From assembly GCA_016793095.1 (NCBI GenBank), contig JAEUJQ010000001.1, forward strand, positions 248,001-312,000: a stretch of 64,000 nt of DNA, read 5' to 3'. A model generated the notes under the pieces. The model searched no databases and was not told where the DNA came from. It saw only the letters and a list, made by a program, of their open reading frames with translations. The stretch comes from Myxococcaceae bacterium. GTDB taxonomy: Bacteria; Myxococcota; Myxococcia; Myxococcales; Myxococcaceae. Below, in pieces: positions 20,550 through 36,089 of this stretch (its first letter is position 1; every line of letters begins with the position of its first letter). Position numbers and translations under genes: made by a program.

Positions 20550-21440
20550 CTAGGTTCCTGCCGCATTGTTGAACACGAAGGCGAACACGATGGGTCCGAA
20601 GAGCACCATGAACACCGTCGGGAAGATGCAGGCGATGAGGGGGAACAGCATCTTGACGGGGGCCTCGTTCGCGAGCTTCTCGGCGCGCTGGGTGCGCTCG
20701 ATGCGCAGCTGCGTGGACTGAATGCGCAGCACCTTGCCGAGGCTGGTGCCCATCTTGTCGGCCTGGATGAGCGCGGTGACGAACTGGGTCAGGGCGGGCA
20801 GATCGACGCGCGCGATCATCGACTTCAGCGCCTCCTCGCGCGTCTTGCCCATCTTGAGCTGCTTGAGCACGAGGTTGAGCTCTTCGCGCAGCGGGCCCTG
20901 CTTGCCCTTCTCGACCACCTTCGCGAGCGCGGCCGTGAAGTCGAGACCAGCCTCGACCGAGAGCGTCAGCAGGTCGAGGTTGAAGGGCAGCGCGCGGCTG
21001 ATCGCCAGGTGACGCTTGGTGACCTTGTCGTTGATCCAGATGAGCGGGTAGAAGAGGCCGATCAACGCGCCCACGAGCGACCAGAGCAGGTTGAGGTTGA
21101 AGAAGTTGGCGACGATGAGCCCGAAGAGCACCCCGACCACGAAGCCGATCTCCTGGAAGGCCATGATGTCTTCGGCCTTCCAGTTCGACGATTCGCCGGC
21201 CTTGATCAGCTTCCGGCCCATGCCTGACTCGTAGCCTGGCCACATGATGCGGCGGTTCATGGTCCCGAGCTTGCGCACCGCGACCGCGCCGGCGCCCTGC
21301 ATGCCGCCCGCCGACTCTTCCTGCACCTCGACCACGAACTGCTCGAGCAGGTTCGCGTAGAGGCTCATCGAGAACAGCGCGACCGCGGCGACCGTCAGCA
21401 TCGCCGTCAGCACCATCAGAATCGTCGTCAACGGATCCAT
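20550..21440 (-). CDS. tadC: Tad/Flp pilus assembly inner-membrane protein TadC (T2SF domain)
   Basis: This 296-residue polytopic protein has an N-terminal helix (LTTILMVLTAMLTVAAVALF), a hydrophobic pair around residues 95-135 (IGFVVGVLFGLIVANFF) and a C-terminal helix (LFPLIACIFPTVFMVLFGPI). Between them lies the T2SF/GspF cytoplasmic domain with LPFNLDLLTLSVEAGLDFTA and LKQLKMGKTREEALKSM. That domain is characteristic of TadB/TadC platform proteins, which work with the TadA ATPase to assemble Flp pili. It follows tadB by 16 bases. The neighbour order cpaB-tadB-tadC supports calling this one tadC. Confidence 0.9.
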   Translation of the reverse strand: MDPLTTILMVLTAMLTVAAVALFSMSLYANLLEQFVVEVQEESAGGMQGAGAVAVRKLGTMNRRIMWPGYESGMGRKLIKAGESSNWKAEDIMAFQEIGFVVGVLFGLIVANFFNLNLLWSLVGALIGLFYPLIWINDKVTKRHLAISRALPFNLDLLTLSVEAGLDFTAALAKVVEKGKQGPLREELNLVLKQLKMGKTREEALKSMIARVDLPALTQFVTALIQADKMGTSLGKVLRIQSTQLRIERTQRAEKLANEAPVKMLFPLIACIFPTVFMVLFGPIVFAFVFNNAAGT

Positions 21441-21456
21441 GTGGGTCCCTGTCCCG

Positions 21457-22302
21457 TCAGATGTCGATGTTGGTGATGCGGCGGATGATGATCACCCCGA
21501 GGATCTCCATGAGCATGATCGCCGCCACCAGCACGTAGCCGAACCAGTGATCGAGCATCGGCTGCATGAGGTCGGGGCGCATGTAGTTGAGCACCACCCC
21601 GAGGATGAGCGGCATCGCCGACACGACCCAGCCCTGCAGCTTGCCCTGCGCCACCAGCGCCTCGATCTTGCCCTCGAGGCGGAAGCGCTCGCGAATGGTG
21701 CTCGACAGCGTCTCGAACATCTCGGCCATGTTGCCGCCGAGCTGCCGCGAGATGTTGGTGGCGGTGGCCACGAGGTCCATGTCGTCGCTGCCCACGCGGC
21801 GCGCCATGTTGTTGAGCGCCTCCTCCATCGGAACGCCGAGCTTGACCTCCTTGGTGAAGAGGCCGAACTCCTGCTGCAGCGGCGGGTAGGAGTCCTTCGC
21901 GATCTGCTCGGTGGCCTGCTGGAAGGTGAGGCCGGCCTTGAAGGCGTTGGCCATCGCCTGGAGCGCGTCCACGAGCTGCTGGTTGAAGCGCTTGATGCGT
22001 TTCTTGCGGTAGTGCTTCACCATGATCATCGGCAGGAAGAAGCCGAAGATCGTCGCGCCGACGCACACGAGCGGGTTGATCACGAAGTACGAGAACAGGC
22101 CGAGCAGCGCCATCGACGCGACGTTCAGCACCAGCATCTGCCGCGGGTCGATGAAGAGGAACATGTCCGACAGGTCGTTCATCGACTTGACGATGTACCG
22201 CTCCTGGTACTGCTCGAACGCCTTCGAGAGGACGCCCATCACCACCAGGCAGAGGAAGAAGACCGAGCCGGTGACCAGCAGCGCGACGAGACCTTTCAGC
22301 AT
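21457..22302 (-). CDS. tadB: Tad/Flp pilus assembly inner-membrane protein TadB (T2SF domain)
   Basis: This 281-residue T2SF protein has membrane helices near the N-terminus (LVALLVTGSVFFLCLVVMGV), around residues 60-90 (MALLGLFSYFVINPLVCVGA) and at the end (YVLVAAIMLMEILGVIII). The cytoplasmic domain contains FNQQLVDALQAMANAFKAGL, ATNISRQLGGNMAEMFETL and RERFRLEGKIEALVAQGK, typical of TadB. It should form the inner-membrane platform together with TadC. It lies 7 bases after cpaB and 16 before tadC. The ATPase, secretin, prepilin and prepilin peptidase that normally complete the system are not in this window. Confidence 0.9.
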   Translation of the reverse strand: MLKGLVALLVTGSVFFLCLVVMGVLSKAFEQYQERYIVKSMNDLSDMFLFIDPRQMLVLNVASMALLGLFSYFVINPLVCVGATIFGFFLPMIMVKHYRKKRIKRFNQQLVDALQAMANAFKAGLTFQQATEQIAKDSYPPLQQEFGLFTKEVKLGVPMEEALNNMARRVGSDDMDLVATATNISRQLGGNMAEMFETLSSTIRERFRLEGKIEALVAQGKLQGWVVSAMPLILGVVLNYMRPDLMQPMLDHWFGYVLVAAIMLMEILGVIIIRRITNIDI

Positions 22303-22309
22303 GGCACGC

Positions 22310-23131
22310 TCACTCCGCCGGGGCCGAGGTGCGGCTCTCGGTCGCCGACGCGCCCTTGATGACCTGAATGGTGTTGAAGCGCTTGGCCTGCAACACCTTG
22401 GTGCGCTCGCCTGACAGCAGCGTGTTGATGGTCGCGCGGCCGCGCTCCTCGAGCACGTCGATGTCGTCTTCGTTGCGCAGCGAGAGGGTCAACGCGCCGA
22501 GCTCCTGCGCGAGCACCAGGATCTCCGCCTCCTCGGGGATGACGAGGAGCGAGACGTTGGCGTACTCGCGCTGGCCGTCCGGGACGAGGTTGATGTTGGT
22601 GGTGCCGGTGATCTTCCCGGTGGCGAGCACGATCACGTTCTGCAGCAGCGTGACGGCCACCTGCTCGCCGGTCGCGGGGTCCTTGAAGGTGCCGATGATG
22701 TCGACGTGATCGTTCGGGCGCACCCAGCCACCGACCGACTGCGCCCCCTTGGTCTCGATGGTGACCGCGCGCGCCTTCTTCTGCACCTTGGTGGACAGGC
22801 GCTCGGCGGCCTTGGTCGTCTCGAACTGGCTCCAGAGCAGCGGGTCACCCGCCTGCAGCGGGACGAGCACCTTCTGGTTCACGATGTATGAGGCCGAGTC
22901 CGGCTTGACGACCGACGAGGTGACGAACTGCTCGGGGATCGAGCGCTGGCTGATCATCTCCATCGTCACCACGGTGCCTTCCGAGATGTCGACGGCCGCG
23001 ACGACGACCTGCACCAGGTTCCAGCCCTTGCGGACGTCCATCTCCTTCTTGCGGACGGCGGAGTACGCGATGACACCGGCCACCAGGCCGAGGCCGAGCG
23101 CGACGATGAGTGGGGTCTTGCCTTTGAGCAT
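22310..23131 (-). CDS. cpaB: Flp pilus assembly protein CpaB/RcpC
   Basis: This 273-residue protein has one N-terminal membrane anchor, TPLIVALGLGLVAGVIAYSA. A SAF-like domain follows (VVAAVDISEGTVVTMEMISQ, then VNQKVLVPLQAGDPLLWSQF). The RcpC/CpaB segment comes next, with ARAVTIETKGAQSVGGWVRP, DHVDIIGTF and LQNVIVLATG. CpaB proteins are periplasmic factors that associate with the Tad secretin. It is the first gene of the tad run, with a strong promoter candidate 64-93 bases upstream. It lies downstream of an ECF sigma/anti-sigma pair on the same strand. Confidence 0.9.
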   Translation of the reverse strand: MLKGKTPLIVALGLGLVAGVIAYSAVRKKEMDVRKGWNLVQVVVAAVDISEGTVVTMEMISQRSIPEQFVTSSVVKPDSASYIVNQKVLVPLQAGDPLLWSQFETTKAAERLSTKVQKKARAVTIETKGAQSVGGWVRPNDHVDIIGTFKDPATGEQVAVTLLQNVIVLATGKITGTTNINLVPDGQREYANVSLLVIPEEAEILVLAQELGALTLSLRNEDDIDVLEERGRATINTLLSGERTKVLQAKRFNTIQVIKGASATESRTSAPAE

Positions 23132-23288: not shown

Positions 23289-24935
23289 TCACTGGGCGGC
23301 GGCAGGCAGGTCTTCGGCGGGCTTCTTCTCGTTCAGCTCGGCGTCGGCGCTCCGTGCCGGGGCCTTTGGCTTGAGCTGGGCCTTCTTGCGTTCGACGACC
23401 TGTCGGGCAGCGGCGGTGCCGGGGAACTCGGAGATCAGCGCACTGCAGAACTGCTGCGCCCGATCGTACTCACCCAGCGCCTCGAACCCGTCGCAGGCGC
23501 GCTTGAGCGCCTCGGCCCGCGAGTACCCCGAGGCGCCGGCCTGCAGCGCCTTCAACGCCGCCATCACCTCGCCCCGGCGATCGCCGCTGTTGGCCGACGA
23601 CCTGGCCTGGGCGAGCTGAGCATCGACGTTGAGCTGTTTGTCACGCGCCCGGCTCGCCTCCGCGTCGCCGCTGGTGGCGATGGACTCGGTCGCCGCAACC
23701 GGAGCGTCCTGGTCGAACGAGGAGGACGGGGCGCTGCGCGGCATCACGCCGTAGCCGGCCTTCGACTTCTTCATGGGCGTGCTCCCCATCGGGGCCTGCT
23801 GCGGTGCTGGGGACGACGGCTGTGCGGTGGGCGGCGGCGGGGGCATCACGGCCTGCGCACCACGCGTGGCGCTCTCGGCCTCGGCGCGCGCGACCTGAGC
23901 CTTCTTGCCGTCCACCTCGTCAACCGGGCCGGCCAACGACCCCGTCGAGACGCCGAAGCCCGGACGGTTCGCGGTGCCGCTCATGGACTGCGCCACCGCG
24001 GCGCCGTCGTTGAGCTGATCGTCCACGTTCGACCTCTCGCGCGCCTTGCCCGTCACGTCGGCCTTCGTCGCGTCCTTCGCCTTCTCCTTCAGCTCCTCGA
24101 GCTTCACGGCGCGGCCGGCGTTGCCGAAGTCGTCGAACCGCCCGGCGCCTTCGCCGCCAGCCGGCGCGGAGCTCCGCTTCGACTCGGACTGCCGCGCGCC
24201 TGACGAGCCCTGCAGCCCGCCCTTGTCACTGCCCAGCACCGGATCGAACGCGCCCGTGTCGGCCGTCTTCGGCGCAGGCATCGGCTTCGAGGGGGCCTGC
24301 TTCTGCACCGCCGCGAGCTCCTCGTTGGCCTTGCGATCCCTGGCGAGCTTGTTGCCCAGCTTCTCCGCGCGCGCGTCGGCGTAGTTGAGATCGAGCGCAG
24401 GCTCAGCGGGCTTCTCGTCCGCCGGCGGGCCACCACGCTTCGTCTGCCGCTCATCCCAGACCTGCTGCCGCTCCTGCTCCGCGGCCTGGACGGGAACCGG
24501 CGCCGCGGCGCTCGGAGCGACGGCGACGACTTCCTCTGCGGCCTTGCGGGCGGTCTTCTCGTTGGCGGCGATGACGTCGCTCGCCGACTGGGGCGCTTCC
24601 TTCGAGGCGCGCACGGCCACCACGCCAATCACCAGCAGGCCTGCGGCCGAGGCCAGCGCGAACACCCAGCGCCGCCAGGGCGCCTGCGTCTCCTTCTTCG
24701 CGCGGCGGGCGTGCTGCTCGGCATAGGCGAGGAGCGACTCGAGGCCGGCCTCCGGCGCCGCGGTCATCGGCAGCGGGGCGAACACCGAGCGCACTCCTTT
24801 GATCTGCGCGAGCGCGTGGCTGCACTTCGCACAGGTGCGCACGTGCGCGTCGACGGCGGCGGCCTCGTTGGCCGGCAGCTCGCCGTACGCGTAGTCGAGG
24901 AGCTTGTCCTCGTATTGGTGCACACCCGTGTTCAT
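23289..24935 (-). CDS. Membrane anti-sigma factor with zinc-finger domain and long low-complexity periplasmic part
   Basis: This is a 548-residue protein. Its N-terminus carries an anti-sigma zinc-finger motif, AHVRTCAKC (His31, Cys35, Cys38), placed as in the ZAS family. One membrane helix follows, WVFALASAAGLLVIGVVAVR (about 90-109). The remaining 430 residues are charged and rich in Ala, Pro and Lys, with no recognised fold until a TPR-like C-terminus (AEALKRACDGFEALGEYDRA). It starts 2 bases after the ECF sigma stop, the usual arrangement in which the anti-sigma holds its sigma factor at the membrane. The very long outer part is unusual, since typical members have 150-300 residues. Confidence 0.85.
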   Translation of the reverse strand: MNTGVHQYEDKLLDYAYGELPANEAAAVDAHVRTCAKCSHALAQIKGVRSVFAPLPMTAAPEAGLESLLAYAEQHARRAKKETQAPWRRWVFALASAAGLLVIGVVAVRASKEAPQSASDVIAANEKTARKAAEEVVAVAPSAAAPVPVQAAEQERQQVWDERQTKRGGPPADEKPAEPALDLNYADARAEKLGNKLARDRKANEELAAVQKQAPSKPMPAPKTADTGAFDPVLGSDKGGLQGSSGARQSESKRSSAPAGGEGAGRFDDFGNAGRAVKLEELKEKAKDATKADVTGKARERSNVDDQLNDGAAVAQSMSGTANRPGFGVSTGSLAGPVDEVDGKKAQVARAEAESATRGAQAVMPPPPPTAQPSSPAPQQAPMGSTPMKKSKAGYGVMPRSAPSSSFDQDAPVAATESIATSGDAEASRARDKQLNVDAQLAQARSSANSGDRRGEVMAALKALQAGASGYSRAEALKRACDGFEALGEYDRAQQFCSALISEFPGTAAARQVVERKKAQLKPKAPARSADAELNEKKPAEDLPAAAQ

Positions 24936-24937
24936 CG

Positions 24938-25573
24938 TCAGCCCGTCACCGTTCTCGAGGCTTCGACCATCGCCTCACCATCGACTCCCAGATCTCCCAG
25001 CTTCTTCCGCAGGCCCTCCAGGGCGTAACGCATGCGGCTCTTCACCGTGTTCTCGTTCACGCCGGTGACCTCGGCGATCTCCTTGAAGCCGATGCCGTGG
25101 TACTCGCGCAGCAGGAAGACCTCGCGCTGCTCCGACGGCAGGCTCGAGATCGCACGCTCGAGCAGCGGCCTCAGCCTCGCGTTGTGCGCGCCGCGATCGG
25201 GGGTGGCCACGGCCTCGTCAGCCACCAGCTCACCCTTCGAGGGCCCCTCGGCGCCCTGCTCACCCGACGCCGGCGCGTCGAGCGAGTCGGTGGCCCTGAA
25301 GGCTTCTTTGCGCGCGCTGTCCACGCAGAGGTTCCTCGCGATCGTGTAGACCCAGGTGGTGAACCGGGCCTTTGGCTCCCATTCGCTGCTGCTGCGCACC
25401 ACCTTCAGCCACGTCTCCTGCAGCAGGTCCTCGGCACGTTGCCGATGACCGACATAACGCAGGATGAAGTTGAACACCGGCTGCCGATGCCGGGAGACGA
25501 GCGTGCTGAACGCTCGGGCGTCTCCCGACTTGAACGCGAGCATCAGCTGCTCGTCGGCAGTTGGCGGTCCCAA
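24938..25573 (-). CDS. ECF-type RNA polymerase sigma factor
   Basis: This 211-residue sigma-70 family protein has region 2 (ARAFSTLVSRHRQPVFNFIL, AEDLLQETWLKVVRSSSEWE, FTTWVYTIARNLCVDSARK) and region 4 (LPSEQREVFLLREYHGIGFK, then IAEVTGVNENTVKSRMRYAL). It has no sigma region 1 or 3, so it is ECF type. A linker of about 45 residues joins the two regions. The start is uncertain. The frame opens with TTG 25571-25573 after a GAGGA site, and no in-frame ATG or GTG lies upstream before the stop; ATG 25543 would give a protein ten residues shorter. It is coupled to the anti-sigma gene that follows. Confidence 0.88.
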   Translation of the reverse strand: MGPPTADEQLMLAFKSGDARAFSTLVSRHRQPVFNFILRYVGHRQRAEDLLQETWLKVVRSSSEWEPKARFTTWVYTIARNLCVDSARKEAFRATDSLDAPASGEQGAEGPSKGELVADEAVATPDRGAHNARLRPLLERAISSLPSEQREVFLLREYHGIGFKEIAEVTGVNENTVKSRMRYALEGLRKKLGDLGVDGEAMVEASRTVTG

Positions 25574-25624: not shown

Positions 25625-26032
25625 CTACCCGCGGGGTCTACCGCGGTAAGTCGCGAGAATGACAGGCAACACGATGCCTGTCACCAGCGCGAATTGCGCC
25701 AGCAGCACCGTCGGAAACGGCCGCTGGAGATGGATGAACAGGCTGCGTCCGAGCGCGAGTCCCAGGAGCACGCCCGTGAAGGTGCGCCAGAGGTTCGAGA
25801 GGGCGTGGGGTCGAAACCGCCCAAACGCCCAGTCCAGGGTCGCCGGCGCGGTGAGGCAGAGGACGACGGGAAGATCGAGTGGGTGCTCGAGCGGCGCGCG
25901 CACCGCGAAGAGCGCCACGAGCATCACGACGAGGGTCGGGTAGACGCCCAGACAGCGCGCGCAGACGTGCAGCGGCCCCACGCGGTAGCAGCGATCGTAC
26001 TCCTCGGGCGGGTGGTGGCTCAGCCAGAACAT
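25625..26032 (-). CDS. DUF2085-type small membrane protein
   Basis: This 135-residue protein has an N-terminal Cys-containing motif, DRCYRVGPLHVCARCLGVY, which matches the CxRC signature of DUF2085 membrane proteins. Three to four hydrophobic helices follow (LVVMLVALFAVRA, LPVVLCLTAPATLDWAF, FTGVLLGLALGRSLF, LLAQFALVTGIVLPVILATY). The family's function is unknown; the paired cysteines hint at metal or disulfide chemistry at the membrane. It lies 6 bases after the peptide-ABC ATPase and 51 bases before the ECF sigma gene. Confidence 0.75.
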   Translation of the reverse strand: MFWLSHHPPEEYDRCYRVGPLHVCARCLGVYPTLVVMLVALFAVRAPLEHPLDLPVVLCLTAPATLDWAFGRFRPHALSNLWRTFTGVLLGLALGRSLFIHLQRPFPTVLLAQFALVTGIVLPVILATYRGRPRG

Positions 26033-26038
26033 CGCGGC

Positions 26039-26917
26039 TCACTTCACCATGACGCAGGCGGCGCCGTGCTGCCCGTTGGTGAGGGCGGGGGTCGTGGCGC
26101 ATGAAGCGACCGCGAGCGGGCAACGGAGCCGGAAGGCACAGCCCGGCTCTTCGGCGACCGGCTGGTCGAGGGCTGGCTCGATGCCCGCCCCCAGCAGGGC
26201 GCGGGTGTACGGGTGCAGCGGCGACGAGAACACCGACCTCAGCGGGCCCTGCTCCACCACCCGACCGGCGAAGAGGACGGCGACCCGTGTCGCCAACGCC
26301 CGCACCACCCCGAGATCGTGCGTGACGATCACCAGGGTGAGGCGGCGCCGCGCGCGCAGTGAGGTCAGCAGCTCGAGCACCTGAGCCTGCACCGAGACGT
26401 CGAGCGCGCTCACCGGCTCGTCGAGCAGCAACACCTCGGGCTCGAGGGCGAGCGCCCGGGCGAGCGAGACCCGTTGGCGTTGTCCCACCGAGAGCGCCGC
26501 CGGCCGTTGCGCGAGCAGCTCCAGCGGGAGCTGAACGTCCGAGAGCAGGGCCTCGAGCTGGGCGGCCACGACGGGGCGACGGTGGATCTGGAAGGGCTCT
26601 GCGAGGCTCTCCCTCACGGTGCGGAGCGGGTCGAGCGCAGCCGAGGGATCCTGAAAGACGGGCTGCACGCGCCGACGCCGGCTCGCGAGCTGAGCCGCCG
26701 AGAGGGAGCCGATCACCTCGTCGCCCCACCGCACCAGGCCGCCGCTCGCGGGGAGGAGGCCCAGCCAGGCCCGGAGCAGCGTCGACTTGCCCGAGCCGCT
26801 CTCGCCGAGAATGCCGAGCACCTCGCCCTGCGCGACCGAGAGCGAGACGTCCTTCACCACCAGCCGGCGGGTTCCTGGCCAGGCCACCGAGAGGTGCTCC
26901 GTCGAGAGGATGCTCAC
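26039..26917 (-). CDS. Peptide/dipeptide ABC transporter ATP-binding protein (OppF/DppF type)
   Basis: This 292-residue ATPase has Walker A GESGSGKST, a Q-loop in PVFQDPSAALDPLRTV, the signature LSVGQRQRVSLARAL, Walker B VLLLDEPVSALDV and the switch His in IVTHDLGVVRA. Its C-terminal Cys-containing domain (GCAFRLRCPLAVASC) is typical of the Opp/Dpp/Nik subfamily. The start is GTG 26915-26917, overlapping the preceding ATPase stop as GTGA; the extra N-terminal residues of the longer frame do not match the family. It energises uptake together with the other ATPase and the two permeases encoded upstream. Confidence 0.92.
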   Translation of the reverse strand: MSILSTEHLSVAWPGTRRLVVKDVSLSVAQGEVLGILGESGSGKSTLLRAWLGLLPASGGLVRWGDEVIGSLSAAQLASRRRRVQPVFQDPSAALDPLRTVRESLAEPFQIHRRPVVAAQLEALLSDVQLPLELLAQRPAALSVGQRQRVSLARALALEPEVLLLDEPVSALDVSVQAQVLELLTSLRARRRLTLVIVTHDLGVVRALATRVAVLFAGRVVEQGPLRSVFSSPLHPYTRALLGAGIEPALDQPVAEEPGCAFRLRCPLAVASCATTPALTNGQHGAACVMVK

Positions 26918-27834
26918 GATCCCCCCAGCCGGTGGTGACACGCGACGCCGCTCGAGAACCCGGGCTGTGCGGCGCACACGTCGGTCGCTCGATCACACCG
27001 GGGGGCGAAGCGACAACCGGGCGGCCGCTGCGCGATCCCGGGTACCGCGCCGGGCAGCACGCGAGGAGCGTCGTGATCGAGCCGCGCCGCGAGCAGGCCC
27101 GCGGTGTAGGGGTGTCGAGGCCGGCTGAAGACGTCTGGGAGCGCGCCCAGCTCGGCGACCCGACCCGCGTAGAGCACGAGCACCTGGTCGGCGATGGACT
27201 CGGCGGCCGCGAGATCGTGGGTGATGAGGAGCAGCGCGAGGCCGCGCCGCGTGGCCAGCCGCTCGAGCAGCTCCAGCACGCCCCGGCGAAGGGACGCGTC
27301 GAGCGCGGTGGTGGGCTCGTCGGCGATGAGCACCCTGGGGCCGGCCGCGAGGGTCGCGGCGAGCAGGGCGCGCTGACGCATCCCGCCCGAGAGCTGATGC
27401 GGGTACTGGCGAGCGACGACCTCGGGATCCGAGAAGCCCACCTCGCTGAGCAGCGCCGAGACGCGGCCTCGAAGCTCGCGTGCAGGCAGGTGCGCGACCC
27501 GCTGGAGCACCTCGGCGATCTGCCCCCCGACGCGCATGACGGGATCGAGCGCACCCGACGGGTCCTGCGGCATCAACGCGACGGTGCGACCTCGGAGCGG
27601 CGCGAGCGCGGCGGCGTTCGCGAGGGCCTGGCCGCCGATGGTCAGCCGCTGCCACCGCGCCGTCAGCCCCTGCGGGAGCACACCACCGAGCGCAGCGGCG
27701 GTGACCGACTTCCCGCTGCCGGACTCTCCCACCAGCGCGAGCACCTGGCCTGCGTCCAGCCGCAGCGAGAGCTGATCGACCAGGGTCGCGCTGGGAGCGG
27801 CAACCTCGAGGCCCTCGAGCTCGACGAGGCTCAT
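26914..27834 (-). CDS. Peptide/dipeptide ABC transporter ATP-binding protein (OppD/DppD type)
   Basis: This 306-residue ATPase starts at ATG 27832-27834 (MSLVELEGLEVAAPSATLVD). It has Walker A GESGSGKSV, Q-loop ALMPQDPSGALDPVM, signature LSGGMRQRALLAATL, Walker B VLIADEPTTALDA and switch LITHDLAAAES. The C-terminal oligopeptide-ABC domain contains GCRFAPRCDRATDVC. It precedes the second ATPase with a 4-base overlap and follows an MshEN-domain gene by 5 bases. The transporter operon is therefore interrupted by the two MshEN genes but remains in one direction. Confidence 0.92.
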   Translation of the reverse strand: MSLVELEGLEVAAPSATLVDQLSLRLDAGQVLALVGESGSGKSVTAAALGGVLPQGLTARWQRLTIGGQALANAAALAPLRGRTVALMPQDPSGALDPVMRVGGQIAEVLQRVAHLPARELRGRVSALLSEVGFSDPEVVARQYPHQLSGGMRQRALLAATLAAGPRVLIADEPTTALDASLRRGVLELLERLATRRGLALLLITHDLAAAESIADQVLVLYAGRVAELGALPDVFSRPRHPYTAGLLAARLDHDAPRVLPGAVPGIAQRPPGCRFAPRCDRATDVCAAQPGFSSGVACHHRLGGS

Positions 27835-27839
27835 CGCGC

Positions 27840-29681
27840 TCAGGACTTGTCGAGCGCGGCGAGGATCTCCGCCTCCGAGACGAGGCCCTTCAAGACCAGC
27901 GCCTTCACCGCGCCAACGATCAGCCGCGACGGCGGCACGTCGTCGAGCTGCCCCGTCCACTCTCCCGGCTTGATCACCAGCGTGGGGCCGATCTGCGGCC
28001 CTTCGGGCGACGACGGCGTCGCACCCAGCCATGACGGCAGCGATTCACGCGGCGCGCCGGGCGGAGGACCAGCGTCGGCCAGCTCAGGGACCGGTGGCCC
28101 GGACTCCTGCGGTGGAGGCAGGGGCGCGGGGGCTGGCGCGTGAGCCACCGCGGAGGGCGCGTGCGGCTCAGGGGGCGGCTCGAAGGGGAAGTCTGGAGCG
28201 CTCTGTGGCCGCTGCTCGGCGTCGGCGAAGAGCTCGTCCGTCATCGCTGCGACGGACCCGAAGAGCGCCTCCGAGACGTTGGGCTGCGGCTGCGAGTCGG
28301 ACGACTGGGGCAGCTCCTCGATCGAGACCGACTCCTCCTGCGTCGAGAACGCGCCAGGCGTCTGGGCGAAGAAGTCGTCCACGCTCGCTGGCGGGGCGGC
28401 TGGCTGCGCCTGCGCCGGGAAGTCTCCGGACGACTCTCCGATCTCGAAGTCACCGGACGACTCGGCCGGTGGGGCGTCGATGGCGACCTCGAAGTTGCCT
28501 GACGACTCGGCTGGCGGCGCGGCATCGACCGCCACCTCGAAGGCGCCGGACGGCTCGCTCGAGAAGCTGGCGTTCGCCGACTCGGAGAGGGTGGCCTGGT
28601 CGAGGTGGCCGGACTCGAGCGAGACCTGGAAGCTGCCTCCCGACTCCACCGGGGGCGCATCGACCGCGACCTCGAACGTGCCGGACGGCTCGGCCGCGGG
28701 CGTGCCGAAGTCGAAGCCCTCAGCGGGGGGGACCTGGAAGACAGCCTGCGACTCGGTCAGCAGGACACCCGAGGGGGCCGAGCCGTCGAGCATGACGTTG
28801 CCCTGTGGCTCCGGCGGCGGATCGAAGTCGAAGGTGCTGACGGAGAAGGTGCCGCTCGACGACGACGTCAGGCCGTGATCTGCCGGCTCGAGGGACAGCT
28901 CGTCGTGACCCGGCGCGACCATCGGGGCGGGGCTCGGCGGGATGCTCGGCGGCGCCGGAGCATGCACGACGGGTACGACGGGCTTTGCCTCGAAGAACTC
29001 CGGCTCTTCTTCGTCGGGGACCTCGACCACCTGCGCGTCGGGCACCTGCTCGAGCTCGAACGACGCGCTGACGGGCAGGACCGCGGGTGGTGGTGGCACG
29101 TCTGCGGTCGTCGGCGGCAGGTCGAGCCCCGAGAACAGCTCGTCGCCCAGACTCGAGGACGACGACCCCGGGCTCTCGTCGAGGCCACCGAACAGCGCAT
29201 CGGCAGAGGGCCCCTGGCTCACGGGAGCGACGACGGGCGCGATGCTGGGCAGCTCGACGCTGGGCGGAGCGAGCATCGCGTGCGCCGCGTCGATCTCGTC
29301 ACCCGCGCCGACGTACCGGTTGACCTTCTTGTTGAGCGAGGTCTCCAGCTCCTCGATCAGGTCCGTGTTCGACGGGTCCGCCATCGCGATCGAGATCGAG
29401 TCTCCCGTCACGCGGAACGGCACGAAGCGGTGCTGCTGCTGGTACTCGACCGGCACCGAGCCCAGCACGTCGTGCGGCACGGGCGGCAGCTGGATGAAGG
29501 GGATCGCGTGCTGCTGAGAGAGCGCCTTCGCCAACTGCATCGGGGTGAGCCGACCGAGCGAGACGAGCAGATCTCCGAGGCGCGCGGGCTCTCCGGCGGT
29601 CTGATCACCCAGCGCGAGGTCGAGATCGGCCTGGGTCACGGCGCCCGACGCGAGCAGGATTTCACCGAGCTTCTTGCGCAT
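27840..29681 (-). CDS. MshEN (GspE N-terminal)-domain protein with repeat-rich acidic linker
   Basis: This is a 613-residue protein. Residues 1-135 form the MshEN/GspE-N domain (KLGEILLASGAVTQADLDLA, LGDLLVSLGRLTPMQLAKAL, PFIQLPPVPHDVLGSVP), which in PilB- and MshE-type ATPases binds cyclic di-GMP. Here no ATPase follows. Instead there is a long acidic Pro/Ser linker with imperfect ESSGxFEVAVDAPP repeats (331-424). The last 30 residues (RLIVGAVKALVLKGLVSEAE) resemble the end of the neighbouring paralogue. ATG 29681 is chosen; a GTG at 29684 is also possible. It sits between permease and ATPase genes of a peptide transporter. The role may be c-di-GMP-responsive scaffolding, by inference. Confidence 0.8.
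   Translation of the reverse strand: MRKKLGEILLASGAVTQADLDLALGDQTAGEPARLGDLLVSLGRLTPMQLAKALSQQHAIPFIQLPPVPHDVLGSVPVEYQQQHRFVPFRVTGDSISIAMADPSNTDLIEELETSLNKKVNRYVGAGDEIDAAHAMLAPPSVELPSIAPVVAPVSQGPSADALFGGLDESPGSSSSSLGDELFSGLDLPPTTADVPPPPAVLPVSASFELEQVPDAQVVEVPDEEEPEFFEAKPVVPVVHAPAPPSIPPSPAPMVAPGHDELSLEPADHGLTSSSSGTFSVSTFDFDPPPEPQGNVMLDGSAPSGVLLTESQAVFQVPPAEGFDFGTPAAEPSGTFEVAVDAPPVESGGSFQVSLESGHLDQATLSESANASFSSEPSGAFEVAVDAAPPAESSGNFEVAIDAPPAESSGDFEIGESSGDFPAQAQPAAPPASVDDFFAQTPGAFSTQEESVSIEELPQSSDSQPQPNVSEALFGSVAAMTDELFADAEQRPQSAPDFPFEPPPEPHAPSAVAHAPAPAPLPPPQESGPPVPELADAGPPPGAPRESLPSWLGATPSSPEGPQIGPTLVIKPGEWTGQLDDVPPSRLIVGAVKALVLKGLVSEAEILAALDKS
28410..28691 (-). repeat. Coding tandem repeats in the MshEN protein linker
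   Basis: Within the MshEN-domain gene, about six imperfect units of 9-16 residues follow the pattern [E][S/P]SGxFEVAVDAPP. They cover protein residues 331-424, with the best copies at 331-345, 376-391, 392-406 and 407-415. The DNA of adjacent units is clearly similar, pointing to expansion by duplication. The encoded segments are acidic and probably unstructured. Confidence 0.7.
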
Positions 29682-29687
29682 CACGCC

Positions 29688-30434
29688 TCAGCGCTTCACC
29701 TTCGCCAGGTACTCATCCCGGGTGAACACACCCTTCTCGATCAACAGCTCCACCATCGCCTTGAGCGCGCCGACCTCTTTGCGCTGGGCGTCTTCGATGG
29801 CCTTCAGCATCTGCGTGGGCGTCTTGCCGGTCGGCGCTGCCGAGGGCGCGGGCACGTCGGCGAGCGAAGCGGTGCGCTGCGCGGGGATCGACTCCTTCGT
29901 CGCCTTGCGCTTCGCGATCTCCTCCGCGCTCTTGATGATCGTGTGGCCCTGCGAATCGACGAGCTTGAAGCTGCCCTCGACGTCGTCCACGTCTCCCGTG
30001 CCGTCGTAGAACCGGGCGAACGCCCGGGCGATCGCCTGCCGGCCAGCGATCTGCGGCACCACCTTGCACCGCGAGACCGAGCGCAGGGTGTCGAGCTGCT
30101 TCAGGTTCTGCGGCTCGGCCATCGCGACGACCAGAGTCCGGCCCTCGTCGCGGAGTTGTAGCGGCAGCGCCACCAGATCGCGGGCGATGTCCTGGGGGAT
30201 CTTCGCGCGCACGTGCGCGGGCACTCCCTGGACTGCTTCGAGGTTCACCGCGGGCACGTTGAGCTGCTTTGACAACGCCTTGACGAGCATGTCCTCGGTG
30301 ACGAGGCTCATCCGCACGAGGATCTCGCCGAGCCGGCCGCCCCACTTCTGCTGCTCCTGGAGCGCGGCCTTGAGCTGGCTCTCGGAGACGACTTTGGCTT
30401 TGACGAGCAGATCGCCCAGGCGAATCGAAGGCAT
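29688..30434 (-). CDS. MshEN (GspE N-terminal)-domain protein
   Basis: This 248-residue protein's first 145 residues are a full MshEN domain: IRLGDLLVKAKVVSESQLKA, GGRLGEILVRMSLVTEDMLV, LNVPAVNLEAVQGVPAHVRA, then VALPLQLRDEGRTLVVAMAE. A charged linker follows (TKESIPAQRTASLADVPAPS). The C-terminal helix ALKAMVELLIEKGVFTRDEY resembles the end of the next gene's product. No ATPase domain is present. It is the first of two adjacent MshEN genes and lies 22 bases after a peptide permease gene. Paralogy of the two proteins is supported by both ends of the chain. Confidence 0.85.
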   Translation of the reverse strand: MPSIRLGDLLVKAKVVSESQLKAALQEQQKWGGRLGEILVRMSLVTEDMLVKALSKQLNVPAVNLEAVQGVPAHVRAKIPQDIARDLVALPLQLRDEGRTLVVAMAEPQNLKQLDTLRSVSRCKVVPQIAGRQAIARAFARFYDGTGDVDDVEGSFKLVDSQGHTIIKSAEEIAKRKATKESIPAQRTASLADVPAPSAAPTGKTPTQMLKAIEDAQRKEVGALKAMVELLIEKGVFTRDEYLAKVKR

Positions 30435-30456: not shown

Positions 30457-31407
30457 TCAGGGCCGGGCGTCGAATCTTCGCGCGAGCCCTCTTCCGACCG
30501 CCTGCGTCGCGAGGACGAGGGAGGCGATGGCGAGGCCAGGGAAGAGGGCCAGCCACCAGGCGTCGGGCGTCACGAGCGACCGATGGGCCTGCTGCAACAG
30601 CTCGCCCCAACTCGGGGCCGGCGGGGCCGCTCCCAGCCCCAGAAAAGACAGGGCGGACTCGAGCAACACCGCGCTGCCGACGGCGAAGGTGGCGGACACG
30701 ACGATGGGTGGCAGGGCGTTGGGCACCACGTGCCGCCCCAGGAGCCACAGCTCGCCCGCGCCGAGCGCCCGCGCCGCCACGACGAAGTCCCGGTCCTTCA
30801 GGCGCAACACCTCGGCGCGCATGAGCCTTGCTGCCTCGGGCCATCGGGTGAGGGCGAGCACCACGATCACGGCCGTGACGCTCGGCGTGCGCAGCGCGGC
30901 CACGATGACGATCAGGAAGAAGACGGTCGGGAAGGTCGAGGCGACCTCGAGGGCACGCGACACCAGCAGGTCGGCCACCCCACCCTTCCAGCCCGCCAGC
31001 GCCCCGAGGGCCACGCCCAGCAACGTCGAGAGCAGCACGACCCCCAGCGCGATCAGCAGCGTCAGCCGGGCGCCGTGGACGAGGCGCGCCAGCACGTCAC
31101 GGCCGATCTCATCGGTGCCGAGCCAGTGGCGGTCGTCCGGGCTCCACGGCGGCGGCTCGGGGCGCACCAGCCCTGACGTCACCACCGTCTGCGTGGGCCC
31201 GAAGGGCACGAGGGTGCCGAGCATCCACGCGGCGCGGCCGCGCAGCGTCGCCTGGGTCTGGTGCTGGAGCGCCTCGGGCCGCGTGAGCGCAGGGAGCACG
31301 AAGGTCTCGCCGTCGAGGCTGATGGCGATGGGCAGGTCCGACGCGATCAGATCGGCGCAGAGCGCGACCGCGCACCAGCACGTGAGCACGAACAGGCCGG
31401 CCCTCAT
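30457..31407 (-). CDS. Peptide/dipeptide ABC transporter permease (OppC/DppC type)
   Basis: This 316-residue permease has an N-terminal helix (LFVLTCWCAVALCADLIAS), a periplasmic loop containing HWLGTDEIGRDVLARLVHGA (the DppC-specific motif before TM2) and four to five further helices. The BPD-transport EAA-loop region is AARALGAGELWLLGRHVVPN. It pairs with the OppB-type permease, whose stop it overlaps by four bases. The loop between the first helix and the LGTDE motif is longer than usual. Confidence 0.92.
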   Translation of the reverse strand: MRAGLFVLTCWCAVALCADLIASDLPIAISLDGETFVLPALTRPEALQHQTQATLRGRAAWMLGTLVPFGPTQTVVTSGLVRPEPPPWSPDDRHWLGTDEIGRDVLARLVHGARLTLLIALGVVLLSTLLGVALGALAGWKGGVADLLVSRALEVASTFPTVFFLIVIVAALRTPSVTAVIVVLALTRWPEAARLMRAEVLRLKDRDFVVAARALGAGELWLLGRHVVPNALPPIVVSATFAVGSAVLLESALSFLGLGAAPPAPSWGELLQQAHRSLVTPDAWWLALFPGLAIASLVLATQAVGRGLARRFDARP

Positions 31408-32363
31408 CGGGCTCCGCTCCCGGGAAGCCGGATGCGTGGATCGACCCAGGCGGCGGCGAGATCAGTGAGCAGCATCGACACCAGCGTGACGGCCGCCATC
31501 ACGGTCGCGACGCCCATCACCACCGGGTAGTCGCGCGTGCCGATCGCCTCGAAGGCCAGCACGCCCATGCCGTGAATGCCGAAGACCCGCTCGATCACCA
31601 CGCTGCCGGCGACGACGTGGGGCAGGTGCAGCCCGAGCACCGTGACGACGGGGATGAGGGCGTTCGGCAGCGCGTGCCGGAGCACCACCGTGCGCTCGTC
31701 GAGGCCGCGGGCGCGCGCGGCCCGGACGAACTCCTGCCTCAACGCCGACGAGACGCCTTCACGGACGTAGCGCGCGAGCATCGCGACGGTCGGCCAGGCG
31801 AGGCACGCGACCGGCAGCACCAGGTGCCACGCGAGATCGAGCCCGCCGCCCCCTTCCGACGACAGCCCCTGAAACGGGAACAGCTCGACGCCCCGCGGAG
31901 TGGCGAGCCAGAGCAGCGCGAGCACGGCCACCCAGAACGACGGGACGCCCGAGGCGAGCGCGAGCACCGCGCCAACCGCTCTCGTCGCCTTCGTCTCGCG
32001 CACCGCGAGCAGGACGCCCAGCGCGATCGCGAGCAGGGTCGCGACCACCAGCGCCAGCCCCGACACCAGCACCGTGCGCGGCAGCGCGTCCCCGATCTTC
32101 TCTGTCACCAGCGACCGATCGACCACGCTGCGGCCGAGATCGGCCGTGGCCAGGCGGCCCAGCCAGACGAAGTACCGCGCCACGAGCGGGCGATCGAGCT
32201 CCAGCTCCTTCCGGGCGGCCTCGACCGCCGCGGCCGACGCGCCCTCCTCCGAGAGCTGCAGGGGATCGCCCGGCGCGAGGTGGGCCACCGCGAAGGTGAT
32301 CGCGGTGATCACCAGGAAGGTCGGCACCATCCACACGAGGCGGGTGACGATCAGCCGGCGCAT
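31404..32363 (-). CDS. Peptide/dipeptide ABC transporter permease (OppB/DppB type)
   Basis: This 319-residue protein begins MRRLIVTRLVWMVPTFLVIT, the classic OppB first helix. The OppB-specific segment PGDPLQLSEEGASAAAVEAA and the ELDRPLVARYFVWLGRLATA stretch follow. The permease core contains VREGVSSALRQEFVRAARAR and LDERTVVLRHALPNALIPVV. The last helix ends in LTDLAAAWVDPRIRL. It starts 1 base after the substrate-binding protein stop and overlaps the next permease by four bases, so it is fully coupled. Confidence 0.93.
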   Translation of the reverse strand: MRRLIVTRLVWMVPTFLVITAITFAVAHLAPGDPLQLSEEGASAAAVEAARKELELDRPLVARYFVWLGRLATADLGRSVVDRSLVTEKIGDALPRTVLVSGLALVVATLLAIALGVLLAVRETKATRAVGAVLALASGVPSFWVAVLALLWLATPRGVELFPFQGLSSEGGGGLDLAWHLVLPVACLAWPTVAMLARYVREGVSSALRQEFVRAARARGLDERTVVLRHALPNALIPVVTVLGLHLPHVVAGSVVIERVFGIHGMGVLAFEAIGTRDYPVVMGVATVMAAVTLVSMLLTDLAAAWVDPRIRLPGSGAR

Positions 32364-32364
32364 G

Positions 32365-34053
32365 TCAGCGGTCCACCCATGCCTTCGAGAGATCGTACCA
32401 GGCGATCGACGGCGCCAGCCCGTGCACGCGGCGCTTCACGGCGTCGAGGGCCGGGCGGGCCGTGAGGAAGAGGTAGACCTGGTCGTCGAACAGCGCGCGG
32501 TGGAGCTGACGCTCGAGGGCCTGGCGTTCGGCGGGCTCGGTGGGGCGCCGGAGCTGCTCCAGCAGCGCGTCGATGGCCGGGGATCTGAGGGCGACGTAGT
32601 TCTTCCCGCCGTCGAGCTGAGACGAGTGGAACAGCTCGAACTGATCGGACACGGCGTCGGGGCTCGACCAGCTCATCGCCGCCGCGTCGAAGTCGTGCGC
32701 GCGCAGGCGGGCGAGGCTCTGCGCCGCGTCCACCGGCTCGAACGCCAGCTCGACCCCTGCGAGCTTCAGCTGCTCCTGAAAGAGCGGGAGCACCCGCCCG
32801 AGCCGCTGCGAGCTCGTCGGCATCAGGAACCCGAACGCGAGGCGCTGGCCGTCCCTCACGCGCACGCCGCCCGGCCCCGGCTTCCAGCCCGCCTCGTCGA
32901 GCAGCGCCATCGCCGCGGCCGGATCGAACGGCAGCGGCTTCACCTCGGGATCGCAGCTCGCCGAGCCGAGCAGGAAGGGGCACGTGGTGCGCGACTCGAG
33001 GCCCAGCTCGACGGTGCGCGAGACGAGCTCCGCAGGGTACAGCATCGCCAGCGCGCGCCGCACCCGCACGTCCTGGAACACGGGCCGTTGGCGGTTCCAC
33101 CCGATCCACGCGTACGCGTTCTCGTCGACCCGGAAGCGGCGATAGCCGGTGAACGCCCAGGCCTGTGACTCCATCGCGCGCCAGACGGGGGGTGGAATGC
33201 GCGTCATCACGTCGAGCTCGCCCTTCTCCCAGAGCTGCGTCGCGATGGTGTCGTCCTTGACGATCCGGAAGACGATCGCGTCGAGCCAGGCAGGCGCGCG
33301 GTGCGCCCCGTTGCGCTTCAGCACCAGCCGCTCGCCCTTCACGAACGAGTCGAACACGAACGCCCCGGTGCCGATGGGCGCCTGGTGGAGGGCGAGCGTG
33401 TCGAAGTCACCGGCGAGCGCTTCCGACGGCATCATCGGCACGGCGCCGAGCAGCGCGCGCACCTCGAACGGGCTCGGAGCACGCTTCCAACGGACGACGG
33501 CGGTGAGCTCGTCGGGGGTCTCGACGGAGGAGACGTCTCCGATCGCGGCGCGCATGGCGACCGTCGCGTTCTTCGGCGCCATCACCACGTCCAGCACGGC
33601 CTTCAGATCCCCCGAGGTGAAGGTGGAGCCGTCGTGGAAGCGCACGTCCGGCTCGAGCGAGAGGGTCAGCGCCTCACCGAGCGTCCAGCCGCGCGCGAGC
33701 CAGGGCAGGAGCGGGCCGTCTGGTCGCGCCGGATCGACGCGGCCGAGGCTCTCGTAGATCGTCCCCGTCGTCGCGCGCACCATCGTGCCTTCGGCGAAGC
33801 GATCATGGATTCGCGAGAAGCCGAGCGGCTCGACCGGGAGCCGGATCGTGAGCGTGCCTCCGCGCCGGGGCGTGCCGGCGTCTTCGGGGCTCGGGCGACC
33901 CGCGAGCCAGTCAGGGTCGGGCGTGGGTCCTGCTCCCGCGTCGGACGCCGCGTTCCCGCCGCACCGGCTGCAGGCGGCGATCGCGCTCGCGACGAGCAGC
34001 CAGCGCACGACGCCACCGATCCCCACGAGCGTCGGCCGATGCAGGTGATTCAT
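32365..34053 (-). CDS. Peptide ABC transporter substrate-binding lipoprotein (SBP family 5)
   Basis: This 562-residue protein has lipoprotein signal LLVASAIAACSRCGG (lipobox IAAC, Cys28). The family-5 binding-protein fold follows: GGTLTIRLPVEPLGFSRIHD, TTGTIYESLGRVDPARPDGP, WTLGEALTLSLEPDVRFHDG, and PIGTGAFVFDSFVKGERLVL. It should capture peptides or similar oligomers in the periplasm and deliver them to the adjacent permeases. Its stop lies one base before the OppB-type gene. The substrate cannot be read from sequence. A LolA/LolB-like lipoprotein gene lies 10 bases upstream. Confidence 0.92.
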   Translation of the reverse strand: MNHLHRPTLVGIGGVVRWLLVASAIAACSRCGGNAASDAGAGPTPDPDWLAGRPSPEDAGTPRRGGTLTIRLPVEPLGFSRIHDRFAEGTMVRATTGTIYESLGRVDPARPDGPLLPWLARGWTLGEALTLSLEPDVRFHDGSTFTSGDLKAVLDVVMAPKNATVAMRAAIGDVSSVETPDELTAVVRWKRAPSPFEVRALLGAVPMMPSEALAGDFDTLALHQAPIGTGAFVFDSFVKGERLVLKRNGAHRAPAWLDAIVFRIVKDDTIATQLWEKGELDVMTRIPPPVWRAMESQAWAFTGYRRFRVDENAYAWIGWNRQRPVFQDVRVRRALAMLYPAELVSRTVELGLESRTTCPFLLGSASCDPEVKPLPFDPAAAMALLDEAGWKPGPGGVRVRDGQRLAFGFLMPTSSQRLGRVLPLFQEQLKLAGVELAFEPVDAAQSLARLRAHDFDAAAMSWSSPDAVSDQFELFHSSQLDGGKNYVALRSPAIDALLEQLRRPTEPAERQALERQLHRALFDDQVYLFLTARPALDAVKRRVHGLAPSIAWYDLSKAWVDR

Positions 34054-34063
34054 GGCCCCGGGC

Positions 34064-34867
34064 TCACGGCGTCACCGCCTGCCCGTTCGCCTGCACCTCG
34101 ACGACGGGAATGCCCTCGGGAGGCTCGAGCTCGAAGAGCGTCACCTCGGGCGTCTCGTTGACGGTGATGTCCTTGTAGAGCAGCTCGACCCTCGTGCTCG
34201 CGACCTTCGCGTCGAGCGTGAGGTGCTTCGGCAGCACGGCGGGCCCGAAGTCGGTGAGCTCTTCAGCGTCGATGGCATAGGTGGTGAGCCCCTCGACTCG
34301 CGAGCGGACGACCCGATGCGAGCCCGTGGCCACGTGGAGCCGCTGCACGACCGCGCCGCGCTTGAGGACGAGCTGGTACGCGCGCGCCGCCTCGTCGACG
34401 GACAGCTCGGTGGACTCCGGGGGCACCCGCGGCACCCGCCCCAGCAGCAGCGCGCCGAGCTCTCTCGGCGGCAACGCGATCGGCAGGAAGCGGGCCATGT
34501 TCTCGACGGAGGCCGGGCCGCGGAAGAACTTCTTCTGCCTCGCGTCGTACAGCCCGAACTGCTCGCCGTCGGTGACGAGCACGCCCTCGGGCCGGCCGAA
34601 GAAGTCGAGCTGCTCGATGTGAATGCGCGAGGGGTGCAGCACCGCGACGAAGAGCGACACGCTGCCCTTCCCCTGCGGGCTGTCCACGATCAGCTTCGCG
34701 TCGCCCCTCACCGAGATCACCTGCGCCTCGGCCACCTCGATGCGCTTGAGCAGGTCCGCGCCGTCCTTCGCCGGGCCGTCCTTGCCGTAGTCCAACGGGG
34801 GGAGCCGGGGACAGCCACCCAGGAGGCCCACCAGGAGCAACAGCCAGGCTCCGCGAAGCAGCGTCAT
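34064..34867 (-). CDS. LolA/LolB-like lipoprotein
   Basis: This 267-residue lipoprotein has signal LLRGAWLLLLVGLLGGCPRL (lipobox LGGC). The body reads as antiparallel beta strands (ISVRGDAKLIVDSPQGKGSV, LFVAVLHPSRIHIEQLDFFG, GVLVTDGEQFGLYDARQKKF), the pattern of LolA/LolB-like or DUF4292 proteins that carry lipids or lipoproteins. No sequence motif proves the family. The gene is divergent from the TolQ-like gene and heads the long minus-strand run, 10 bases before the peptide-binding protein gene. Its start ATG is 34865-34867. Confidence 0.75.
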   Translation of the reverse strand: MTLLRGAWLLLLVGLLGGCPRLPPLDYGKDGPAKDGADLLKRIEVAEAQVISVRGDAKLIVDSPQGKGSVSLFVAVLHPSRIHIEQLDFFGRPEGVLVTDGEQFGLYDARQKKFFRGPASVENMARFLPIALPPRELGALLLGRVPRVPPESTELSVDEAARAYQLVLKRGAVVQRLHVATGSHRVVRSRVEGLTTYAIDAEELTDFGPAVLPKHLTLDAKVASTRVELLYKDITVNETPEVTLFELEPPEGIPVVEVQANGQAVTP

Positions 34868-34907
34868 GGCGCCGGAGAGTATGGCTCGCTATGTCTGCGG
34901 TCCATCA

Positions 34908-35627
34908 ATGAGCTTCGACGAGCTGGTCCATTACATCCGCCTGGGCGGGCTGACGATGGCGGTCATCCTGCTCGCGTCCGTGCTCGCGCTCGGCGTCGGC
35001 ATCGAGCGGCTGCTGGCGCTCTGGGGAGTCGGCTCGAAGGCGCGCGAGCTGGGGCAGACGATCGCCCGCCACCTCCTGCGTGGAGACGTCCCCGCCGCGC
35101 GCTCAGCGGCTGATCGTGCCACCACGATGTCGGCCGATCTGTTCCGCGCCGGGTTCGAGCGCGCGCAGAAGACGACGGGGCCGCCGCTCGACGCCGCGGT
35201 CGATCGCGAGCGGCAGCAGCTCGCCCTCAAGATGAAGCGCGGGCTGTGGATTCTCGGCACCATCGGCGCCACCACGCCGTTCGTAGGCCTGTTCGGAACG
35301 GTCGCTGGCATCATGAAGTCGTTCCGCGACCTGGGCCTCGACGTCGAGCAGGGGGGCACCGGCGGCTCCGCGGCGGTGATGACGGGCATCTCGGAGGCGC
35401 TGATCGCGACCGCCGCCGGCATCGTCGTTGCCGTCGAGGCGGTGGTGCTCTTCAACATCTTCCAGGCGCGGCTGTCGCGGCTCAACGTCGAGCTCAAGCT
35501 GATCGCCGAGGAGTTCGTCGAGCTGCTCCGAGAGGCGCCGAAGCAGGGCACGCCCTCGCCCGAGTCGTCGAGCCCCGCCGCGAGCGGGCCCGTGAGCACG
35601 GCACCGGCGCCCGCTGGAGGCAGCTGA
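34908..35627 (+). CDS. TolQ/ExbB-family proton-channel protein
   Basis: This is a 239-residue inner-membrane protein. It has a first helix (LGGLTMAVILLASVLALGVG), a long cytoplasmic helical domain, and the conserved MotA/TolQ/ExbB core KRGLWILGTIGATTPFVGLF to GTVAGIMKSF. The third helix is SEALIATAAGIVVAVEAVVL. The C-terminus is Pro/Ser-rich. With the TolR/ExbD protein encoded 3 bases downstream it should use the proton gradient to energise outer-membrane processes. ATG 34908 is preferred because MSFDELVHYIRLGG matches homologues. ATGs at 34866 and 34881 are in frame but would overlap the divergent gene start region. Confidence 0.9.
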   Translation: MSFDELVHYIRLGGLTMAVILLASVLALGVGIERLLALWGVGSKARELGQTIARHLLRGDVPAARSAADRATTMSADLFRAGFERAQKTTGPPLDAAVDRERQQLALKMKRGLWILGTIGATTPFVGLFGTVAGIMKSFRDLGLDVEQGGTGGSAAVMTGISEALIATAAGIVVAVEAVVLFNIFQARLSRLNVELKLIAEEFVELLREAPKQGTPSPESSSPAASGPVSTAPAPAGGS

Positions 35628-35630
35628 GCC

Positions 35631-36089
35631 ATGGCCGGCGGACGCACGCCAGGCAGCTCTGATGATCCCGGCGACGAGGAGGCCGTGTTCTCGGAGATCA
35701 ACATCACGCCGCTGACTGACATCTTCCTGGTGCTGCTGATCATCTTCATGGTGACCAGCTCGGTGATCGTGAACCAGGGTCAGGGCGCGAAGGCGGGCCT
35801 GAAGGTGAACCTGCCGCAGGGCGGCGCGGCCGACGTGAAGGCCGACTCGTCGGATCTGTCCGTCGCGATCCTCACCGACGGACGGCTGGTGCTGAGCGGC
35901 AACGTGGTGACGGCCGAGGAGCTGAAGAAGGCCTTCGAAGACACGAAGGCGAGGAACCCGGACACGCTGGTGATCGTCCAGGCTGACGAGGGCGTGCCGC
36001 ACGGGAAGGTCGTCGAGGTGATGGAGGCCGCGAAGGCCGCCGGGCTCGCGCAGCTGGCCATCGGCGTGCGTGAGAGCCCGACGAAGTAG
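35631..36089 (+). CDS. TolR/ExbD-family protein
   Basis: This 152-residue protein has the hallmark FSEINITPLTDIFLVLLIIF, in which the Asp of PLTDIFLVLL is the proton-relay residue. The single membrane helix is followed by a periplasmic domain with VNLPQGGAADVKADSSDLSV and AGLAQLAIGVRE. The N-terminus carries an acidic stretch, SSDDPGDEEAV. It follows the TolQ-type gene by three bases. No TolA/TonB gene is adjacent in this window. Confidence 0.92.
   Translation: MAGGRTPGSSDDPGDEEAVFSEINITPLTDIFLVLLIIFMVTSSVIVNQGQGAKAGLKVNLPQGGAADVKADSSDLSVAILTDGRLVLSGNVVTAEELKKAFEDTKARNPDTLVIVQADEGVPHGKVVEVMEAAKAAGLAQLAIGVRESPTK

Follow-up and report, generated by a model that had tools for sequence, protein, structure and literature searches.

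The MshEN receptor domain (PF05157) is known from MshE, PilB and GspE, where it is fused to a traffic ATPase, and its motif comprises two copies of RLGxx(L/V/I)(L/V/I)xxG(L/V/I)(L/V/I)xxxxLxxxLxxQ separated by a 5-residue spacer (PMC5013675). Genes encoding the domain are numerous in myxobacteria, with up to 22 in M. xanthus (PMC5013675). Family-5 ABC importers of the Opp/Dpp/Nik type are built from an SBP_bac_5 binding protein, two BPD permeases and two oligo_HPY ATPases. In the shared importer ATPases MsmK and MsiK, the ATPase genes are unlinked from the permease genes (PMC4519317, PMC4890002).

The locus described here, found in a 64,000-nucleotide stretch of a Myxococcaceae genome (hereafter the window), resembles these systems in part. 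Its two MshEN proteins, Msh1 and Msh2, share with MshE, PilB and GspE the domain, the fold, the two 24-residue motifs and, in Msh1, the contact residues, but they lack a fused traffic ATPase, carry an extra C-terminal helical segment and are encoded in linkage with the ATPases of an ABC importer. That importer has the Opp/Dpp/Nik components, whereas two MshEN genes are inserted among them and the ATPases, AtpD and AtpF, are often encoded without permeases. Unlike MsmK and MsiK, these ATPases are peptide-type and coupled to MshEN genes, and their sharing is putative. The component families are all known; the coupling is without published precedent in the open-licence PMC papers searched, in which we found no MshEN protein coupled to ABC-importer ATPases, no function for stand-alone MshEN proteins and nothing relevant on this locus or rpoE1.

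In the window, a minus-strand run from 34867 to 23289 reads Lp-SBP-PermB-PermC-Msh1-Msh2-AtpD-AtpF-DUF2085-Sig-Anti (Table 1) and contains a complete family-5 (Opp/Dpp/Nik-type) importer set, with one SBP_bac_5, two BPD_transp_1 and two ABC_tran plus oligo_HPY genes. The initial annotation had placed two MshEN genes between the permease and ATPase genes; the coordinates are exact and the Pfam domains agree. It had also described them as having no ATPase of their own, and a profile search likewise found no ATPase domain in Msh1 or Msh2. The intergenic gaps are 22 bp between PermC and Msh1, 3-6 bp between Msh1 and Msh2 (the Msh2 open reading frame spans 27840-29684 on the minus strand, with a likely ATG at 29681) and 5 bp between Msh2 and AtpD, while AtpD and AtpF overlap by 4 bp. 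Since no gap exceeds 22 bp, the transporter, Msh and ATPase genes are likely one transcript. No promoter-like or terminator-like matches were detected between PermC, Msh1, Msh2, AtpD and AtpF, in a scan that is weak at 70% G+C. Scores of the binding protein and permeases lie between those of the oligopeptide and nickel models and below every equivalog cut-off, so that sequence cannot tell the transported substrate.

Table 1 Genes of the Msh locus in the window, listed in the direction of the minus strand
Gene	Coordinates	Strand	Predicted product	Supporting match
Lp	34064..34867	-	Predicted lipoprotein, DUF4292-like (LolA/LolB-type)	
SBP	32365..34053	-	SBP_bac_5 family-5 substrate-binding protein	196 bits
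PermB	31404..32363	-	BPD_transp_1 permease (OppB/NikB type)	120 bits
PermC	30457..31407	-	BPD_transp_1 permease (OppC type)	99 bits
Msh1	29688..30434	-	MshEN protein, 248 aa	PF05157 59.4 bits; PDB 5htl 34% identity
Msh2	27840..29681	-	MshEN protein, 613 aa	PF05157 51.3 bits
AtpD	26914..27834	-	OppD/DppD-type ABC ATPase	ABC_tran + oligo_HPY
AtpF	26039..26917	-	OppF/DppF-type ABC ATPase	ABC_tran + oligo_HPY
DUF2085	25625..26032	-	DUF2085 membrane protein	PF09858 40.9 bits
Sig	24938..25573	-	ECF sigma factor	Pfam and NCBIfam
Anti	23289..24935	-	zf-HC2 anti-sigma-like protein	PF13490

The window copy of Lp gave no match in a Pfam search; its orthologues match DUF4292, one of them above cut-off, and the gene lies upstream of Msh1 or of the transporter in most relatives. 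The DUF2085 gene after AtpF is also kept in relatives. Divergent ExbB/ExbD-type proton-channel genes adjoin Lp (34866-36089), a position kept in Myxococcaceae. Tad/Flp pilus genes (CpaB, TadB-like; 20550-23131) follow the anti-sigma gene, and CpaB and TadB are retained beside Msh1-Msh2 in several distant relatives.

Both Msh proteins exceed the cut-offs for Pfam MshEN (23.1 bits; Table 1) and for the NCBIfam MshE-type c-di-GMP motif (74.5 bits for Msh1 and 47.0 for Msh2, against 38 bits). In the Msh1 model, the MshEN domain is confidently predicted over residues 1-142 and is followed by a disordered linker (146-203); two helices, at 206-233 and 239-247, make up a C-terminal segment (206-247). 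Its top PDB matches are PilF GSPII-A and MshE with c-di-GMP (5htl_B, E 3.5e-10). A model of an Msh2 orthologue is organised likewise, down to the C-terminal helical segment, except that its linker is longer. With 66 D/E against 3 K/R over 425 residues, the linker of window Msh2 is acidic, and an SSGxFEV-like unit recurs along it, as expected from the acidic repeat linker ascribed to one of the pair. The similarity proposed for the two C-termini holds in so far as they share the motif L(I/V)xKG(V/L)xTxxE(Y/I)LA and are both predicted to be helical, but profile comparison of Msh1 with Msh2 aligned the N-domains alone and not the C-termini. Among crown species, Msh2 (L197:9078-10094) carries a conserved VPVVVFGGAA motif within the disordered linker. 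A further stand-alone MshEN protein, whose C-terminal segment is similar, is encoded next to ExbB/ExbD genes in the window's genome (L173:8336-9184).

Contacts to c-di-GMP were scored as R, L, G, L, L and Q in each of the two motifs, 12 in all. Window Msh1 retains 12/12 with a spacer of 5, and the turn glycines of both motifs are lost (Lys and Ser instead). Msh1 hardly varies at the Leu, Gly and Gln contacts across 74 sequences and never departs from a 5-residue spacer, whereas most orthologues carry Lys instead of Arg at position 1. Window Msh2 keeps 11/12 (Lys for Arg) with a spacer of 6 rather than 5; in many relatives its motifs are degenerate, with 6-8/12 contacts in crown Msh2 and as few as 3/12 in several soil-clade sequences. 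For PilF GSPII-A, small changes abolish c-di-GMP binding (PMC12002112). A second-messenger input, as originally suggested, fits Msh1, on its full set of contacts, its MshEN fold model and its match to MshE with c-di-GMP; that both N-domains sense the ligand is doubtful because the Msh2 site is degenerate in many relatives.

Conservation of the locus was examined in 60 near relatives, of which 44 match Msh1 at E values no higher than 1e-39; matches in the remaining 16 are weaker and possibly paralogous. Synteny compared by tblastn resolves three main states. The first, a full transporter around the pair, is shared by many Myxococcaceae, by further families of the order and by a genome of another order (G109, L180). 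The full order Lp-SBP-B-C-Msh1-Msh2-D-F is found again even where Msh1 identity has fallen to about 40%, so the arrangement is not chance, and its spread over several families and a second order shows it to be ancient. The second, Lp-Msh1-Msh2-AtpD-AtpF without binding protein or permeases, is found in Myxococcus, Corallococcus, Pyxidicoccus, Citreicoccus, Hyalangium and Archangium; there Msh2 and AtpD usually overlap by 4 bp. In M. xanthus AM003 the contig ends after Msh2, and D/F are not seen on it. A record titled Comamonas sp. KCTC 72670 (L115) has a Myxococcus-type locus, groups with Myxococcaceae and is probably mislabelled. The third, in a clade of soil MAGs, reads Lp-Msh1-Msh2-Sig(-Anti)-CpaB-TadB and contains no transporter gene. 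In other classes, Msh1-Msh2 is accompanied by DUF2085, CpaB or Sig, and loci with D/F and the pair without permeases are also present. On the Msh1 tree, several deep branches of which are long and uncertain, full-transporter loci fall in separated clades and the crown clade branches from within these, which suggests that the crown state arose by loss of the binding protein and permeases.

Among loci with enough upstream sequence, D/F occur without permeases at 26 and permeases without D/F at one (L126). With start codons chosen by rule and 17/53 loci not measurable, the Msh2-AtpD spacing is -4 bp in 18/36 loci and 13 bp or less in 31/36. In a locus of another class (L192), the Msh2-AtpD overlap is retained alongside a divergent Msh1. 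The AtpD proteins of Msh loci form one group, separate from another OppDF pair of G128, which supplied the only two outgroup rows. Walker A, signature, Walker B and oligo_HPY are kept in AtpD/AtpF, including at permease-less loci, and a Walker-A variant with Cys, GESGCGKS, occurs among them. Judged by gene content and spacing, the Msh pair is tied to the two ATPases and not to the whole transporter. The conservation check advised in the initial annotation thus found the gene order conserved in other myxobacteria, but with co-conservation limited to the two ATPases; the proposed peptide-transporter link persists as Msh1-Msh2-D-F without the binding protein and permeases, and is absent from the soil clade, where the pair has no transporter gene beside it.

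Crown genomes encode SBP-permease-permease trios at other sites, Opp-type by family models, and no ABC ATPase was detected in the 17-19 kb fetched around them by a scan that recovered both positive controls. The complete genome G119, G022 and the window's genome have no oligo_HPY ATPases besides AtpD/AtpF, while a further OppDF set, itself complete, is present in G012, G116 and G128. In the window's own genome AtpD/AtpF are linked to permeases; the combination of unlinked ATPases that are also the sole candidates of their type is found in G119 and G022 only. There, ATPase sharing is the simplest reading, because no other oligo_HPY ATPase is present and the trios lie elsewhere without one. That crown genomes merely relocated the window-type SBP-B-C trio was rejected: the Archangium-type ATPase-less trio is a paralogue, since G029 has such a trio beside an intact window-type locus. 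In several crown Myxococcaceae an Opp-type trio without ATPases lies directly downstream of a lon-like gene (L198:6985-11126); its assignment as YejABE was rejected, as family models place its parts with the general Opp type. The window's genome holds a second binding protein (46% identical; L207:5527-7119) with no permease genes nearby.

Because the pair stays with the ATPase genes across much of the phylum, even at loci that have lost the other transporter genes, these patterns suggest that c-di-GMP may control the motors of peptide uptake, although evidence from gene order is indirect. In the reading that we favour, if tentatively, Msh1 would be the c-di-GMP sensor and would act with Msh2 to gate or recruit AtpD/AtpF, with use in trans in crown Myxococcaceae. 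Msh1 and Msh2 would be dedicated partners of these Opp-type ATPases. The MshEN domain of Msh1 would bind c-di-GMP as the sensor, and its conserved C-terminal helical segment, carried on the disordered linker, would dock on Msh2 or on the ATPases. Msh2, a tethered and partly degenerate MshEN partner, would act as an adaptor. Through this joint action of the two proteins on the ATPases, peptide import would be switched with the motile/sessile signal, and in crown Myxococcaceae AtpD/AtpF would act in trans on permease trios encoded elsewhere. Here we infer c-di-GMP binding, contact with the ATPases, the direction of control and use in trans. A unified version, in which Msh1-Msh2-AtpD/AtpF form a c-di-GMP-gated energising hub that, in crown Myxococcaceae, powers peptide importers with binding-protein and permease genes at other sites, we consider unlikely.

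The main rival holds that the pair serves its other neighbours, namely the DUF4292/LolB-like lipoprotein, the ECF sigma/anti-sigma genes or the Tad/Flp pilus, and that the transporter genes merely share the operon. We judge this rather unlikely, although the usual partners of MshEN domains are ATPases of pilus and secretion systems (PMC5013675), and both the soil-clade arrangement and the DUF2085, CpaB or Sig companions in other classes fit it. Against it, CpaB/TadB were not found within the fetched flanks in Myxococcus, where D/F are retained, Msh2 and AtpD mostly overlap or lie a few bases apart, and loci L139 and L078 retain the transporter together with the pair. The soil clade is the strongest evidence against an exclusive tie to D/F; as it has no transporter gene, the pair therefore has a use without them.

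The N-domains of Msh1 and Msh2 may, instead, not bind c-di-GMP, and the proteins would then serve as structural adaptors for positioning or stabilising the ATPases. The degenerate Msh2 motifs, the position-1 Lys and missing turn Gly of most Msh1 sequences, and long disordered linkers carrying conserved short motifs are all compatible with this. The near-invariant Leu, Gly and Gln contacts and fixed spacer of Msh1, however, suggest ligand constraint, and we consider a purely structural role unlikely. Less credible still is that the crown-genome ATPases beside Msh1-Msh2 have been repurposed and no longer power import: the locus lacks permease genes, as do D/F-plus-pair loci in other classes, but oligo_HPY and the ATP-site motifs are retained and the trios elsewhere have no ATPases of their own. 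Least plausible of all is a neutral history of the operon, without any functional link; the loss of each part in some lineages could be cited for it, but the gene order has persisted between families and into a second order, and the genes remain closely spaced.

If c-di-GMP control of AtpD/AtpF through Msh1 and Msh2 is correct, c-di-GMP would have a direct route to set nutrient import, and stand-alone MshEN proteins would gain a testable role. In predatory, fruiting bacteria, a biofilm/motility signal would thus be joined to peptide uptake.
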